A stretch of DNA of 64,000 nucleotides from Fuscovulum blasticum DSM 2131. Its GTDB lineage: Bacteria; Pseudomonadota; Alphaproteobacteria; Rhodobacterales; Rhodobacteraceae. The notes beneath the pieces were generated by a model. That model was not told where the DNA came from. It saw only the letters and a program-made list of their open reading frames with translations, and did no database searches. The stretch spans positions 186,001-250,000 of the forward strand of contig NZ_PZKE01000001.1 in NCBI RefSeq assembly GCF_003034965.1. Direction: 5' to 3'. This document shows positions 41,923 through 50,832 of this stretch, in pieces. The translations under genes and the position numbers were made by a program. The first letter of the stretch is position 1. Every line of letters starts with the position of its first letter.

Positions 41923-42109
41923 GGGGCGACTCTGGGGATATTCGCGTTACGTTCCATAGGCCGGAAAGCGTGATCCCGGCCCGAGAAGGCGGCAGGATCG
42001 GCAAGCTGTGGATGGCTGTCAAGCGCCGCGGAACTTATCCAGAAGGGGATGCGGTTTCGCGGGGTCTGGGGACAAGACACGCTTCCCCCGGGTCTGTTCT
42101 GTGCAGACA

Positions 42110-42118
42110 TGTGGATAA
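42110..42118 (-). promoter_or_regulatory. Perfect DnaA box
   Basis: TGTGGATAA, the exact complement of the consensus TTATCCACA. It lies 13 nt left of the main AT-rich block in the putative origin, the usual geometry for the box next to the unwinding element. Confidence 0.75.
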
Positions 42119-42190
42119 ACTTCAGCCGCTATTCCATTTATCTATCTGTTTTTATTGTTATTTTATTCCTGAAGCTCGCGAACATGCTTC

Positions 42191-42210
42191 TTGTCCACAG
42201 ATTTTCCACA
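42191..42210 (+). promoter_or_regulatory. Pair of near-consensus DnaA boxes
   Basis: TTGTCCACA (42191-42199) and TTTTCCACA (42202-42210), each one mismatch from consensus and in the same orientation. They are spaced 11 nt start-to-start, one helical turn, on the right side of the AT-rich block. Confidence 0.68.
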
Positions 42211-42338
42211 CCCGGGCCAGGCTTGGGGTAACTGCCGGGGAACCTGCGACAATCCCGTTATCCCCTGCCCCTACATCATCAATTCCTTTCTATATTTCTT
42301 CTTGTTAAAGGATGTCCGGGCGACAGGGAGCCGGACCG

Positions 42339-42788
42339 ATGGGCGATTTTCTCTGGGAATGGTATGGATGGATCAAGTCCATGCATGTGATCTCGGTCAT
42401 CGCGTGGATGGCGGGGTTGTTCTACCTGCCGCGCCTGTTCGTCTATCATGTCGAGGTGGTGGGGTCGGGCAACCCGACCGATGACCTGTTTCAGGTGATG
42501 GAACGCCGGCTGCTGAAGGCGATCATGACGCCGGCTGCGGTTTCGACCTGGGTCTTCGGCCTGTGTCTGGTGTTCACGCCGGGCATTGTGGACTGGAGCC
42601 TGTGGTGGCCGTGGTTCAAGGCAACGGCGGTGATCACGATGACCTGGTTCCATATCTGGCTTATGCTGCGCCGCCGTGATTTCGCGGCAGGGCAGAACCG
42701 GCTGACCGGACGCGCCTATCGGGCCATGAACGAACTGCCCACGGTGCTGATGTTCTTCATCGTCTTCTCGGTGATCGTCAAATTCTGA
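42339..42788 (+). CDS. hemJ: Protoporphyrinogen IX oxidase HemJ
   Basis: 149-aa membrane protein with four helices. It has the conserved HemJ motifs KSMHVISVIAWMAGLFYLPRLFVYHVE and KATAVITMTWFHIWL, plus NELPTVLMFFIVFSVIVKF at the C-terminus. It oxidises protoporphyrinogen to protoporphyrin in heme synthesis and replaces HemG/HemY in most alphaproteobacteria. ATG 42339 has GGGAG upstream; ATG 42312 is the alternative, but its AAAGG is too close. Confidence 0.92.
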   Translation: MGDFLWEWYGWIKSMHVISVIAWMAGLFYLPRLFVYHVEVVGSGNPTDDLFQVMERRLLKAIMTPAAVSTWVFGLCLVFTPGIVDWSLWWPWFKATAVITMTWFHIWLMLRRRDFAAGQNRLTGRAYRAMNELPTVLMFFIVFSVIVKF

Positions 42789-45468: not shown

Positions 45469-47337
45469 ATGTTTCACGTGAAACACTATGACGTGCTTGT
45501 GGTGGGCGGAGGCCATGCCGGTGCCGACGCGGCGGCAGCGGCGGCACGGATGGGCGCGACCACGGCGCTGGTCACCATGCGGGCGGCCGCGATTGGCGTG
45601 ATGTCCTGCAACCCGGCCATTGGCGGTCTGGGCAAGGGCCATCTGGTGCGCGAAGTGGATGCGCTGGATGGCATCATGGGCCGCGCGGGCGACCGGGCAG
45701 GTATTCAGTACCGGCTGCTGAACCGCCGCAAGGGGCCGGCGGTCCAAGGCCCCCGCACACAGGCCGACCGCAGGCTTTACGCCCAGGCCGTGCAGGCGCT
45801 GCTGGCCGAAGAGCCGCTGCTGACGGTGATTGAAGGCGAGGCGGCTGAACTGCTGCTCGAGGGCGGGCGCTGCACGGGGCTGCGGTTGGCCGATGGCGCC
45901 GAAATTGCGGCGCGGGCTGTGGTGCTGACGACGGGCACCTTTCTGAACGGGATCATCCATGTCGGTGATCAGCGCCGGTCCGGGGGGCGGGTTGGTGATG
46001 CGGCCTCGGTTCGGCTGGCCGAACAGATTCGCGCACTGGGGCTGACAACGGGCCGGCTGAAGACGGGCACGCCACCCCGGCTGGACGGGCGCAGCATCGA
46101 CTGGGCGCGGTTGGACATGCAGCCGGCGGATGAGGCGCCGGTGATGCTGTCCTTCCTGAACCGCGCGCCGCTGGTGCGGCAGATTTCCTGCGGCATCACC
46201 CATACGTCCGAGGCGACGCATGATGTCATTCGCGCCAATCTGGCCCGCAGCGCCATGTATGGCGGCCATATCGAAGGCGTCGGCCCGCGCTATTGCCCGT
46301 CGATCGAGGACAAGGTGGTGCGCTTCGCCGACAAGACCAGCCACCAGGTGTTCCTGGAACCCGAAGGGCTGGACGACGACACGGTTTATCCCAACGGCAT
46401 TTCCACCAGTCTGCCCGCCGAAGTGCAGGAGGCCTACGTTCGCACTATCGTCGGGCTGGAGCGGGCGGTGATCACCCAGCCGGGCTATGCCATTGAATAT
46501 GATTACCTTGATCCGCGGGAGCTGCGCGCCACGCTGGAAAGCCGCGCCATGCCTGGGCTGTGGCTGGCGGGGCAGATCAACGGCACCACCGGCTATGAAG
46601 AGGCCGCGGCGCAGGGCGTGGTGGCGGGGCTGAACGCCGCGCTGTTTGCGAAAGACCGCGAGGCTGTGACGTTCTCGCGCACCGACAGCTATATCGGCGT
46701 GATGATCGACGATCTGGTGACGCGGGGGGTGACGGAACCCTATCGCATGTTTACCTCGCGCGCCGAATATCGGCTGAGCCTGCGCGCCGACAATGCCGAT
46801 CAGCGGCTGACACCGCTTGGCCTGCGGCTGCGCTGTGTGCGCGAAGACCGCGCGCGCGCCTTCGGCACGAAGATGGAGGCGCTGGAGCGTGTGGTTTCCG
46901 CCCTGAAAGCGCGCAGCTTCACGCCGAAAGAGCTGCTGGCCGGGGGCGTGGTTGTCAGCCAGGATGGCGCGCGGCGGTCAGCCTTCGATGTGATGGCGCT
47001 GCCGGACTATGACCCTGCGCAACTGGACGGTTTGATGCCGGAACTGGCCGAACATCCGGCCGAAGCCCGCGCGCAGGCGGGGATTGAGGCGTTGTATGCC
47101 CAATATGCCGACCGGCAGGCGGCGGATGCCGAGGAATTGCGCCGCCACGAAACCACGGCGATTCCGCCCGATTTCGACTATGCCCCGCTTTCGGGCCTGT
47201 CGCATGAGCTGAAATCCAAGCTGATGCGGCTGCGGCCGGAAAACCTGCATCAGGCGCGGCAGATCGAGGGCATGACGCCGGCGGCGCTGACCCTGCTGAT
47301 TGCCAGCCTGAAGAAACCCCAGAAACGGGCGGTTTAG
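45469..47337 (+). CDS. mnmG: tRNA uridine-5-carboxymethylaminomethyl modification enzyme MnmG (GidA)
   Basis: 622-aa FAD-binding partner of MnmE. It has the N-terminal dinucleotide fold [21 protein letters not shown], the GidA signatures [23 protein letters not shown] and [21 protein letters not shown], and a helical C-terminal MnmE-binding domain ([31 protein letters not shown] region). The start codon overlaps a parS site, which explains the MFHVKH N-terminus seen in related alphaproteobacteria. Confidence 0.97.
45470..45485. promoter_or_regulatory. parS: parS centromere site (ParB binding), copy 1
   Basis: TGTTTCACGTGAAACA, a perfect match to the bacterial chromosomal parS consensus and a perfect 16-bp palindrome. 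It starts at the T of the mnmG ATG, so the site encodes the first residues (MFHVKH) of MnmG. It lies 2.5 kb upstream of parA and 3.3 kb from the putative oriC. Confidence 0.95.
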
Positions 47338-47958
47338 GTGGACGCCGCCTTGTGGAAAGACCTGGGCGTCGGCGAGGGCGGGCTGGACAAGCTGCACGCC
47401 TTTGTGGCGCTGGTTGAGAAATGGACGGTGCGGATCAATCTCGTGGCCCGCTCGACCCTGCCCGATATCTGGGAGCGCCATATCGAGGATTCCGCCCGCC
47501 TGTGCCTGACGGCCCCCGAAAGCCCCGCGATCTGGGCCGATTTCGGCGCAGGCGGCGGGTTTCCGGGCATTGTGGTGGCCGTTGTGTTGCAGGCGCGGGG
47601 GGCGAAAACGCGGGTGATTCTGGTGGAATCAGACCTGCGCAAGGCCACCTTCCTACGCGAATCGGCACGCTTGCTGGATCTGCCGGTCGAGGTGCGCAGT
47701 GAACGGGCGGAATCGCTGCCGCCCCTTGGGGCCGATGTGGTTTCGGCCCGCGCGCTGACCGCGCTTGATGGGCTTTGCGCCCTGGCGCAGCGGCACATGG
47801 CGCCGGGTGGCGTGGCGATTTTTCCCAAGGGCGAGAATTACGAGGCGGAAATCGACGCAGCCCGGAAAAACTGGCGCTTCGATCTGGAGACCGTTACCGA
47901 TCCGCGCCATAAGGGGGCCATCCTTTGCCTGAGGAAGATCGACCTTGCCCGCAGCTGA
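47338..47958 (+). CDS. rsmG: 16S rRNA (guanine-527-N7)-methyltransferase RsmG (GidB)
   Basis: 206-aa SAM-dependent methyltransferase. SAM loop [14 protein letters not shown], acidic strand [16 protein letters not shown], and [13 protein letters not shown]. It starts with GTG directly after the mnmG stop codon and overlaps parA by 14 nt. Confidence 0.95.
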
Positions 47959-48760
47959 CCCCATTGCCGCGACCGACCGCGCACCTGCGCATGTGATTGC
48001 CATCGCCAACCAGAAGGGGGGCGTGGGCAAGACGACCACGGCGATCAACCTGTCTGCGGCGCTGGCCGAACGGGGGCTGACGGTTCTGCTGGTGGACCTT
48101 GACCCGCAGGGAAATGCCTCAACCGGCCTTGGGATCACCCCGAAAGACCGCAAGCAGACGACCTATGACCTGATGGTGTCGGACGGGGCGCCGGACAAGA
48201 TCATCCGGCCGACCGGGGTGAAGGGGCTGTGGATCAGCCCGGCGAATTCTGACCTGGCCTCGGCGGATATTGATCTGGTGGCGAACGAAAAGCGCAGTTT
48301 TCTGCTGCATGATGCCCTTCGCCACCCGGAAATCGAGGCGATGGGCTTCGATGTGATCCTGATCGACTGCCCGCCCTCGCTGAGTTTGCTGACGGTGAAC
48401 GCGCTGGTCGCGGCCCATGCCGTTCTGGTGCCCTTGCAAGCCGAGTTTTTTGCCCTGGAAGGCCTGTCGCAACTGCTGCTGACCGTGCGCGACGTGCGCC
48501 GGTCGGCAAATCCGGCGCTGCGGATCGAGGGTGTGGCGCTGACCATGTATGACGGCCGCAACAACCTGGCGCAGCAGGTTGAAAAGGATGCGCGCGACAA
48601 TCTGGGGGACATGGTGTTCCGCACCGTCATTCCGCGCAATGTCCGGCTGAGCGAGGCACCGTCCTATGCCAAGCCGGTGACGGAATACGACAGCGCCTCG
48701 CGCGGGGCCGAGGCCTATCGCGCGCTGGCCGGAGAAATTGCTGCCAAACTGCAGCGTTAG
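47945..48760 (+). CDS. parA: Chromosome partitioning ATPase ParA (Soj)
   Basis: 271-aa deviant Walker-A ATPase; KGGVGKTT at 24-31, [11 protein letters not shown], and [19 protein letters not shown]. It drives ParB-parS (origin) segregation over the nucleoid. The start is TTG 47945 inside the end of rsmG; a GTG at V17 is the only other candidate that keeps the ATPase fold. Confidence 0.96.
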
Positions 48761-48779
48761 AGACGTATTGGGGGTGGGT

Positions 48780-49658
48780 ATGGAGCCGAGAAAAGGGCTT
48801 GGGCGCGGTCTTTCGGCGCTGATGTCGGATGTGAACCTGCGGCCGGAAAGCGAGGGTCCGCGCCGGGCCGATACGATTCTGCCGGTGGCGCGTCTGCGCC
48901 CGAACCCGTTGCAGCCCCGCAAGGATTTTGACCAGGGCGCGCTGGAATCGCTGGCCGATTCGCTGCGTCAGAAGGGCGTGATCCAGCCCCTGGTGGTGCG
49001 CCCGGTGGGCGACGATTACGAAATTGTCGCCGGTGAACGCCGCTGGCGGGCGGCGCAGATCGCGCAACTTCATGAAGTGCCGGTTGTCATCCGCGATCTG
49101 GACGACACCGAGGTGCTGGAAGTTGCGATCATCGAGAATATCCAGCGCGAAGACCTGAATGCCATCGAAGAAGCCCTTGGAATCAAGGCGTTGGTGGATA
49201 GGTTCGGTCATACGCAGGAGAAGATTGCCGAGGCGCTGTCGAAAAGCCGCAGCCATATTGCCAACCTGATGCGCCTTCTGGCGCTGCCGGATGAGGTGCA
49301 GGCCATGGTGCGCGCGGGCACCATCAGCGCCGGCCATGCCCGGGCGCTGATCGGCACGCCGGACCCGGTGGCGCTGGCGCGCAGGGTGGCGGTGCAGGGG
49401 CTTTCGGTGCGCGAAACCGAGAAACTGGTGCGCGAAAGTGGCCCGGCAGCCACCAAACCCATCCGCGACCGCGTTGATTCGTCCAAGGATGCCGATACGC
49501 GCGCGCTGGAGGGCGATCTTTCCGCGCATCTTGGCTTGTCGGTGAAGATTGATCATCGCGGCGAAGGCGGGTCGCTGACCATTTCCTATCGGTCGCTTGA
49601 AGATCTGGACCGGCTTTGCAATCTGCTGTCGCAGGCATCGGCCGGTCTGGCAGACTGA
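48780..49658 (+). CDS. parB: Chromosome partitioning protein ParB (Spo0J)
   Basis: 292-aa CTP-dependent clamp that loads at parS. The N-terminal ParA-interacting segment (KGLGRGLSALMSD), the CTPase box GERRWRAAQ, the ENIQREDLNAIEEA segment, and the HTH (TQEKIAEALSKSRSHIANLMRLL) are in the usual order, followed by a C-terminal dimerisation domain. A G-rich ribosome-binding site (GGGGGTGGG) precedes ATG 48780. Its two cognate parS sites lie at 45470 and 50816. Confidence 0.97.
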   Translation: MEPRKGLGRGLSALMSDVNLRPESEGPRRADTILPVARLRPNPLQPRKDFDQGALESLADSLRQKGVIQPLVVRPVGDDYEIVAGERRWRAAQIAQLHEVPVVIRDLDDTEVLEVAIIENIQREDLNAIEEALGIKALVDRFGHTQEKIAEALSKSRSHIANLMRLLALPDEVQAMVRAGTISAGHARALIGTPDPVALARRVAVQGLSVRETEKLVRESGPAATKPIRDRVDSSKDADTRALEGDLSAHLGLSVKIDHRGEGGSLTISYRSLEDLDRLCNLLSQASAGLAD

Positions 49659-49659
49659 G

Positions 49660-50832
49660 TCAGGCCGAAAGTTCCAGAACCAGACGGTTCAGCAGCAGGC
49701 GGCCGGCTTCGGTTGTGCGAAGGTGGTCGCCGTCTTGCTGCAAAAGCCCGCCATCCAGCGCGGCTTCCAGTGCGCCGGCGTTCAGATCGCTGCCCGAAAG
49801 GGCGCGATACCGCGAAATGCGGGTGCCTTCCGACAGGCGAAGCGACATCATCAGGTATTCATCGGCCTGCGCGGCGGGAAGAAGAACCTCACGCGGGGTT
49901 TCGCCGCTGCCGGTATCGCGAACGGCGCGAAGCCAGACTTCGGGGTTACGATGCGTGCTGGTGGCATAGCGCGTTTGGCCCAGCGTCAGGCGGCCATGCG
50001 CGCCCGGGCCGATGCCGACGTAATCGCCCATGCGCCAGTACACCAGATTGTGCCGCGATTCCGAGCCTTCGACCGCATAATTTGAAACCTCATAGGCGGA
50101 AAGGCCGGCGCCTTCGCAGATTTCGCCGGTCATTTCATACATGGCAACGGCCAGGTCTTCATCGGGCAGGCCGCGCAACTTGCCCGCGCGGGCAAGGGCG
50201 CCGAAGGCGGTGCCATCCTCGATGGTCAATTGATACAGCGACAGATGATCGGGGCCACGATCCAGCAGTGAGCAAAGTTCGTATTCCCAGGCGGCAAGCG
50301 TCTGGTCTTGCCGGGCATAGATCAGATCTGCCGACACCCGGTCAAAGGTGGACCGGGCCAGATCCAGCGCCGCCAAGGCCTCGGCCGCGCTGTGCTGGCG
50401 GCCAAGGCGGCGCAGATCGTCATCATTCAGGGCCTGCAGGCCCAGCGACAGGCGGTTTACGCCTGCGGCGCGATAACCGCGAAAGCGATCTGCCTCAACC
50501 GAGGTGGGGTTGGCCTCAAGCGTGATCTCGATGTCATTCTCGAACCGCCAGTGCCGCGAAATCCGGTCAAGCACCGCGCCAACCAGCGACGGGTCCATCA
50601 ACGAAGGCGTGCCGCCGCCGAAAAACACCGACCGCAGGATGCGACCGCCGGTTTCGGCTGCGGCGCGGTCAAGTTCGGCCAGATAGGCGGATTGCCAGTC
50701 CTGCTGGTCGATCCTTGTGCGGACGTGGCTGTTGAAATCGCAATAGGGGCATTTGGCCTTGCAGAACGGCCAGTGCAGATACAGCGCAAAGCCGCCGGCC
50801 TGCCAGTCTTCGGGCTGTTTCACGTGAAACAC
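49660..50832 (-). CDS. hemW: Heme chaperone HemW (radical SAM, coproporphyrinogen oxidase-like)
   Basis: 390 aa. The radical-SAM cluster CKAKCPYC (Cys24, Cys28, Cys31) is followed by SVFFGGGTPSLMDPSLV. A HemN_C-type domain follows. True HemN's substrate features are not evident, so HemW (heme delivery) is the better name. The start is GTG 50832, which lies within parS copy 2 (N-terminus MFHVKQ), overlapping the rdgB stop by 13 nt. It ends 1 nt from the convergent parB. Confidence 0.93.
   Translation of the reverse strand: MFHVKQPEDWQAGGFALYLHWPFCKAKCPYCDFNSHVRTRIDQQDWQSAYLAELDRAAAETGGRILRSVFFGGGTPSLMDPSLVGAVLDRISRHWRFENDIEITLEANPTSVEADRFRGYRAAGVNRLSLGLQALNDDDLRRLGRQHSAAEALAALDLARSTFDRVSADLIYARQDQTLAAWEYELCSLLDRGPDHLSLYQLTIEDGTAFGALARAGKLRGLPDEDLAVAMYEMTGEICEGAGLSAYEVSNYAVEGSESRHNLVYWRMGDYVGIGPGAHGRLTLGQTRYATSTHRNPEVWLRAVRDTGSGETPREVLLPAAQADEYLMMSLRLSEGTRISRYRALSGSDLNAGALEAALDGGLLQQDGDHLRTTEAGRLLLNRLVLELSA
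50816..50831. promoter_or_regulatory. parS: parS centromere site (ParB binding), copy 2
   Basis: TGTTTCACGTGAAACA, identical to copy 1 at 45470-45485 and a perfect consensus match. It sits across the rdgB-hemW junction: on the minus strand it supplies the last codons and TGA stop of rdgB and most of the first codons of hemW. Confidence 0.95.

Follow-up and report, generated by a model that had tools for sequence, protein, structure and literature searches.

The gap between the divergent genes maf and hemJ of Fuscovulum blasticum DSM 2131 is, very probably, the chromosomal replication origin (oriC). We regard it as a candidate of predicted activity and as an unremarkable example of a familiar type of bacterial origin. 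The window that we analyzed is a stretch of 64,000 nucleotides, and the candidate site lies at position 228,130 of contig C1 (410,342 bp), within an assembly of 3.59 Mb in 69 contigs. The original prediction had named this gap a likely chromosomal oriC, and its reading gains support from the clustering of DnaA boxes in the gap, from the retention of the gap by all 78 informative relatives, from the genome's sole parS sites, less than 9 kb away, and from the GC-skew turns of relatives (the same-genus genome G012 and Maritimibacter ih11). Several observations speak against it: the skew minimum of the contig itself, a shifted skew switch in the complete relative QY30, a noisy skew in G015, and a pair of DnaA boxes on contig C2. 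To these are added the lack of a strict IHF match and of a full CtrA site in the window, a degenerate hemJ-side box, and a failed three-NAN rule.

Genes and composition of the maf–hemJ gap

The features of the candidate origin are collected in Table 1. The gap is free of genes over 416 nt, and the genes on its two sides run in the directions originally described, those from maf onward to the left and those from hemJ onward to the right. It had also been taken as GC-rich, which calls for qualification; 53% of the gap is GC, less than in any 2-kb bin of the window (59% to 69%), and the AT content of 41923-42311 is 0.47. The names maf, aroE, dnaQ, hemJ, rho, mnmE, mnmG, rsmG, and parAB agree with an NCBIfam scan that took in all genes named in the prediction except coaE and the flagellar genes; the matches of hemJ, maf, and rsmG were under the cut-off, as were all 25 parA matches listed. 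For hemJ, there are two start candidates, 42312 and 42339, of which the latter, implied by an end of the gap at 42338, looks better by eye. In the window, the hemJ reading frame spans 42312-42788, between the candidate origin and rho.

The absence of dnaA from the vicinity was also correctly anticipated. The gene is missing from contig C1 and was found at C4:6615, which places it more than 180 kb away from the gap. In alphaproteobacteria, dnaA need not adjoin the origin; the distance between dnaA and hemJ is about 49 kb in QY30 and about 88 kb in Maritimibacter. An origin at dnaA itself was considered and rejected, as boxes do not exceed one per 420 nt at the locus that holds this gene (L046) and form no cluster there.

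Table 1. Coordinates of the candidate origin and associated features in the window
Feature	Position	Strand	Basis or remark
oriC candidate: gap between divergent maf and hemJ	41923..42338	.	boxes, conservation
DnaA box, maf-proximal	41933..41941	-	two mismatches in window
DnaA box TTATCCAGA	42035..42043	+	one mismatch
DnaA box TTATCCACA	42110..42118	-	perfect
Central AT-rich block	42131..42168	.	composition, 82% AT
DnaA box TTGTCCACA	42191..42199	+	one mismatch
DnaA box TTTTCCACA	42202..42210	+	one mismatch
DnaA box TTATCCCCT, hemJ-proximal	42258..42266	+	two mismatches in window
C-rich spacer and WWC triplets (GCCCC TAC ATC ATC), DnaA-trio-like	42267..42280	+	triplet counts in relatives
hemJ-proximal AT-rich tract, candidate unwinding element	42281..42310	.	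42280-42309 77% AT
parS, perfect palindrome	45470..45485	.	just 5' of mnmG domain match
parA and parB, origin-proximal partition genes	47945..49658	+	ORFs, NCBIfam
parS, perfect palindrome	50816..50831	.	at start of minus-strand ORF 49660-50832

DnaA boxes cluster in the gap

One perfect DnaA box (42110) and three boxes with one mismatch (42035, 42191, and 42202) were recovered where the original prediction had placed them, and four additional sites, at 41933, 42007, 42067, and 42258, have two mismatches. The cluster is far beyond chance, as in a bacterial oriC: the gap holds 4 of the 9 boxes with at most one mismatch in the entire window, and each of 20,000 order-1 Markov sequences modelled on the region contained at most 2 such boxes, versus the 4 observed. 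Contig C1, which was scanned in full, has 24 sites with at most one mismatch, the 42110 box being the only perfect site; beyond the gap, such sites never number more than one in 420 nt of this contig. Elsewhere, the scan covered samples, comprising 180 kb of contigs C2 to C4 and two short loci. One sampled stretch, C2:308836-308855, carries a perfect box adjacent to a second box. The pattern TTNTCCACA-N0-30-TTNTCCACA has a single match in the 3.59-Mb assembly, inside the gap, and two inverted arrangements of the TTNTCCACA pair have no match in the whole assembly; the pair on C2 does not fall under any of these patterns.

Conservation among relatives

Of at least 576 loci confirmed in a HemJ search, the best 80 were taken. 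Most are labelled Rhodobacteraceae or Rhodobacterales, or belong to genera that we place there; the labels of L068 and L129 read Rhizobium and Proteobacteria, respectively. Two loci (L103 and L113), the sequence of which stops short of maf, were dropped, leaving 78 informative loci. In all 78, maf and hemJ are divergent, with a gap of 354 to 460 nt (median 390). These gaps contain 240 boxes with at most one mismatch in 30.4 kb (7.9 per kb), versus 152 in 889 kb of flanking DNA (0.17 per kb); 68 of the 78 gaps have at least two boxes, 9 have one, and a single gap (L100) has none, counts that come from relatives of shared ancestry and not from independent trials.

The individual boxes are retained to different extents. 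A box with at most one mismatch lies within 3 columns of the aligned place of the maf-proximal box (41933) in 53 of the 78 relatives, and near the aligned place of the 42110 box in 25; the 42202 and 42191 boxes have counterparts near their aligned places in 21 and 8 relatives, respectively. At the place of the 42035 box, TATCC is present in 8 of 8 rows of a same-genus alignment.

Partition genes and parS sites

The rho/gid/par neighbourhood is shared with the origins of Caulobacter crescentus and other alphaproteobacteria. At a tolerance of one mismatch, the parS sequence TGTTTCACGTGAAACA occurs at exactly two sites in the genome, 3.2 and 8.5 kb from the gap; parAB also lies near the candidate oriC. 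Perfect parS sites, one or two per genome, are present in 11 of the 12 genomes of the genus that were searched (F. blasticum included), and G009 has none. A location of parAB near ori has been reported for almost all genomes of one analysis, with exceptions that include Rhodobacterales (PMC8116508).

Both parS sites sit where reading frames would start with the peptide MFHVK, and the minus-strand ORF 49660-50832 is presumably hemW-like. The two sites are about 5.4 kb apart, a spacing shared by six other members of the genus that were searched.

The GC-skew minimum of the contig lies 118 kb from the gap

GC skew had been proposed as a check, with a minimum far from 42 kb counting against an origin here, and on this contig that is what was found. 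The cumulative skew of the window climbs overall without a turn at 42 kb, the minimum of the contig is at C1:110,560, 118 kb to the left of the site, and the genome shows no sign change at the site itself. The third-position skew averaged over both gene strands also turns at about C1:110 kb, so the shift persists; exceptions are a negative bin at C1:182-205 kb and near-zero values at 274-342 kb. The polarity of GGGNAGGG (plus/minus) is 9/25 at 1-110.5 kb, 12/14 at 110.5-228 kb, and 25/13 beyond, and the middle segment, having no clear side, is undecided. Skew alone has been described as insufficient in several alphaproteobacteria (PMC1914354).

Skew was also sampled in four relatives, in stretches of 20 kb or smaller. 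In G012, the switch is clear: with maf at 724 kb, skew is negative in 10 of 10 stretches between 424 kb and that point and positive in 8 of the 10 beyond it, those at 764 and 1024 kb being the exceptions. In Maritimibacter ih11, with hemJ at 1793.5 kb, the values are -0.010 at 1730-1750 kb, +0.005 at 1770-1790 kb, and +0.060 at 1795-1815 kb, which puts the turn at most about 40 kb away; samples far from the locus (900 and 3400 kb) take the other sign, though barely. In G015, the skew near the locus (3477 kb) is noisy: it changes from -0.012 at 3450 kb to +0.021 at 3475 kb, and samples at 3320 kb and 1 kb are of the other sign. In QY30, the switch is about 100 kb off, on the maf side.

Gene order in G012 offers a partial account of the shift. 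Two places that are 135 kb apart here, C1:84.5 kb (a single gene, matched at 91% identity) and C1:219.3 kb, have homologues 4.8 kb apart in that genome, a difference that suggests an entry or movement of DNA next to the origin. Rearrangement as the entire cause was not borne out, as eight genes of C1:146-168 kb correspond to 527-538 kb of G012 with their strand and their side of the origin unchanged, and not all of the segment would therefore stem from the other arm. Rearrangement would thus account for the skew shift only in part. The comparison covered parts of the G012 contig, and collinearity around the locus extends over C1:219-243 kb only. The segment C1:110-228 kb, which includes the left part of the window, has skew of the wrong sign and a gene order unlike that of G012, with a part on the same arm and strand.

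These data also bear on a true origin about 118 kb to the left, near C1:110,560, with the gap acting only as a locus for DnaA titration or promoter control. Such an arrangement would fit both the cumulative minimum and the gene-strand-corrected third-position turn, the shift of QY30 is of like size and to the same side, and the eight genes that kept side and strand mean that moved genes are not a full explanation. We nonetheless give it only a slim chance. Contig C1 has no other box cluster, the turns of F. blasticum and QY30 lie in gene neighbourhoods that do not match, and those of G012 and Maritimibacter lie at or near the maf–hemJ locus. Both parS sites are beside the gap, which all 78 relatives keep, and the 4.8-kb distance in G012, versus 135 kb here, points the same way, with one gene on the far side. 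An origin in the maf–hemJ gap thus remains our reading.

A conserved module at the hemJ side

An AT block of approximately 80% had been highlighted at 42131-42168, and its AT content is indeed 0.82. Among the candidate unwinding elements, the one with the strongest conservation lies outside this block, at 42258-42310. In a 79-row alignment inspected by eye, conservation peaks at the boxes aligned to 41933, 42223, and 42258, and along the stretch 42258-42312, which consists in order of a box, GGCCC, TAC, WWC repeats, a T-rich tract, and AAGAAG. These repeats recall the unwinding region of B. subtilis, a general likeness and not a sequence comparison. Over the 78 relatives, the box in the 42258 column is perfect in 10, has a single mismatch in 32, two mismatches in 19, three in 7, and at least six in 10, and thus stays within one mismatch in 42. 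Of these relatives, 58 have three or more WWC triplets no further than 24 nt from the box, against a mean of 0.67 and a maximum of 4 in 200 shuffles, the WWC form of this repeat test having been picked after inspection of the alignment. The window also has at least three (TAC ATC ATC), so that tandem 3-base repeats by the last box are present in a variant of three or more WWC triplets; its hemJ-proximal box and triplets are degenerate. The window fails the published rule of at least three NAN triplets next to a DnaA box, within a 16-nt spacer, having a run of two. This rule separates these origins from shuffles weakly, as 50 of the 78 relatives reach it versus a shuffle mean of 31 (maximum 42).

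Among 292 genomes of the order, 11 matched the strict pattern TCCACAGNSCCTACWWCWWC and 2 its reversed-pattern control; among 385 genomes of the class, 2 matched the pattern, and the genome of the window had no match. At class level, the reversed control was found in 12 genomes, more than the 2 of the pattern itself. TCCACAGNSCCTACWWCWWC was rejected as a general marker for being too strict, and it lends no support outside the order.

Seven genomes of the genus (G002, G003, G005, G007, G010, G011, and G012) showed no HemJ in the interval from maf to rho; in these, 495 to 610 nt separate the maf start from the aligned rho residues. As judged by eye, the same-genus alignment retains box, spacer, and AT tract in varying quality, and at least three WWC triplets are kept in six of the seven genomes, the exception being G002. 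As the repeats persist without hemJ, the module would be part of the origin and not a hemJ leader or promoter; it may have a role in rho expression. The same genomes weigh against a gap that serves mainly as divergent maf and hemJ promoters with DnaA-regulated transcription. The gap does separate divergent genes, and DnaA boxes occur in promoters too, but its length is almost constant across the 78 relatives, and we give this alternative next to no chance beside a replication origin.

The central block and the site of opening

AT-rich elements adjoin the boxes both in the centre and at the hemJ edge of the gap, as judged by composition only. Aligned relatives are AT-rich at the central block as well, where sequence conservation is low. 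The IHF-like core TAAN4TTGA is present in the gaps of 18 of the 78 relatives, versus a control mean of 4.7, and all 14 plus-strand copies begin 204 to 239 nt into the gap; the strict IHF motif is present in 9 of the 78, versus 1.8 in controls. Neither was found in the window. The full CtrA site TTAA-N7-TTAA is present in 6 of the 78 relatives (control mean 0.7) and absent from the window. We read the centre as a region that probably serves for bending, and the hemJ edge as the likelier site of opening.

If the gap is oriC, strand opening would then probably take place at the hemJ-side tract, at about 42281-42310. That unwinding would instead begin in the central block, with the hemJ-side module as an accessory, is a lesser but appreciable possibility: the block is 82% AT, is AT-rich in aligned relatives, and is flanked by the best boxes of the genome, and the hemJ-side box of the window has two mismatches. 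The block is poorly conserved, however, whereas some of the best-conserved positions fall in the box, spacer, and triplets of the hemJ side.

With opening at the hemJ side, initiation could proceed as follows. DnaA, encoded on another contig, would bind the boxes on either side of the central AT block, which would bend the DNA. A DnaA filament would start at the hemJ-proximal box, spread over the adjoining WWC triplets, and open the AT tract, where helicase would be loaded. Two forks would depart, one toward maf and one toward hemJ, and ParB on the two nearby parS sites would segregate the new origins.

Comparison with known origins

The Caulobacter origin lies at hemE/COG1806 and has DnaA, CtrA, and IHF sites (PMC1914354). 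Cori of Caulobacter crescentus and the alphaproteobacterial hemE/COG1806 origins resemble the present candidate in their gap of about 400 nt, their DnaA boxes, their AT-rich block, and their neighbour of heme synthesis (PMC1914354). Unlike in Caulobacter, the boundary genes here are maf and hemJ instead of hemE and COG1806, and the window has neither a full CtrA site nor a strict IHF match.

Within the family, origins of 101 Rhodobacteraceae strains were predicted with Ori-Finder from boxes, skew, and parAB proximity, and eight more strains could not be placed (PMC6699656). Those origins are alike in family and in the criteria used; they are predictions only, and flanking genes, box layout, and unwinding elements do not figure in the part of that study compared here (PMC6699656). 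For D. shibae, DNA from the terminus region has been described (PMC7901474). We recognised no marker-frequency map of a member of the Rhodobacteraceae among the literature matches listed, a coverage that mostly leaves out subscription journals.

The basal unwinding system consists of DnaA boxes and DnaA-trios (PMC8287927), and both the system and its use in origin prediction have been described (PMC8287927, PMC10225481). The hemJ-side DnaA box, C-rich spacer, WWC repeats, and AT tract appear to form an arrangement resembling this system, in which a DnaA box is likewise followed by a short C-rich spacer, 3-base repeats, and then an AT tract (PMC8287927). Unlike in the basal system, the repeats here are WWC (3'-WWG-5') instead of 3'-GAT-5', their middle adenine is variable, and F. 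blasticum has only two consecutive NAN triplets. Tentatively, and with more doubt than confidence, Rhodobacteraceae origins might use a variant unwinding module made up of a box, a C-rich spacer, and WWC repeats that lack an invariant middle adenine.

Implications

The probable origin of a draft genome is hereby narrowed to about 400 nt, where the GC skew of the contig would point to a site 118 kb away. What our analysis adds is a caution on the use of skew in the F. blasticum genome and the module at the hemJ side. This short conserved module at the hemJ edge is a testable candidate unwinding site for Rhodobacteraceae, and, if the variant is real, DnaA of this family would read a single-strand repeat other than the 3'-GAT-5' trio.
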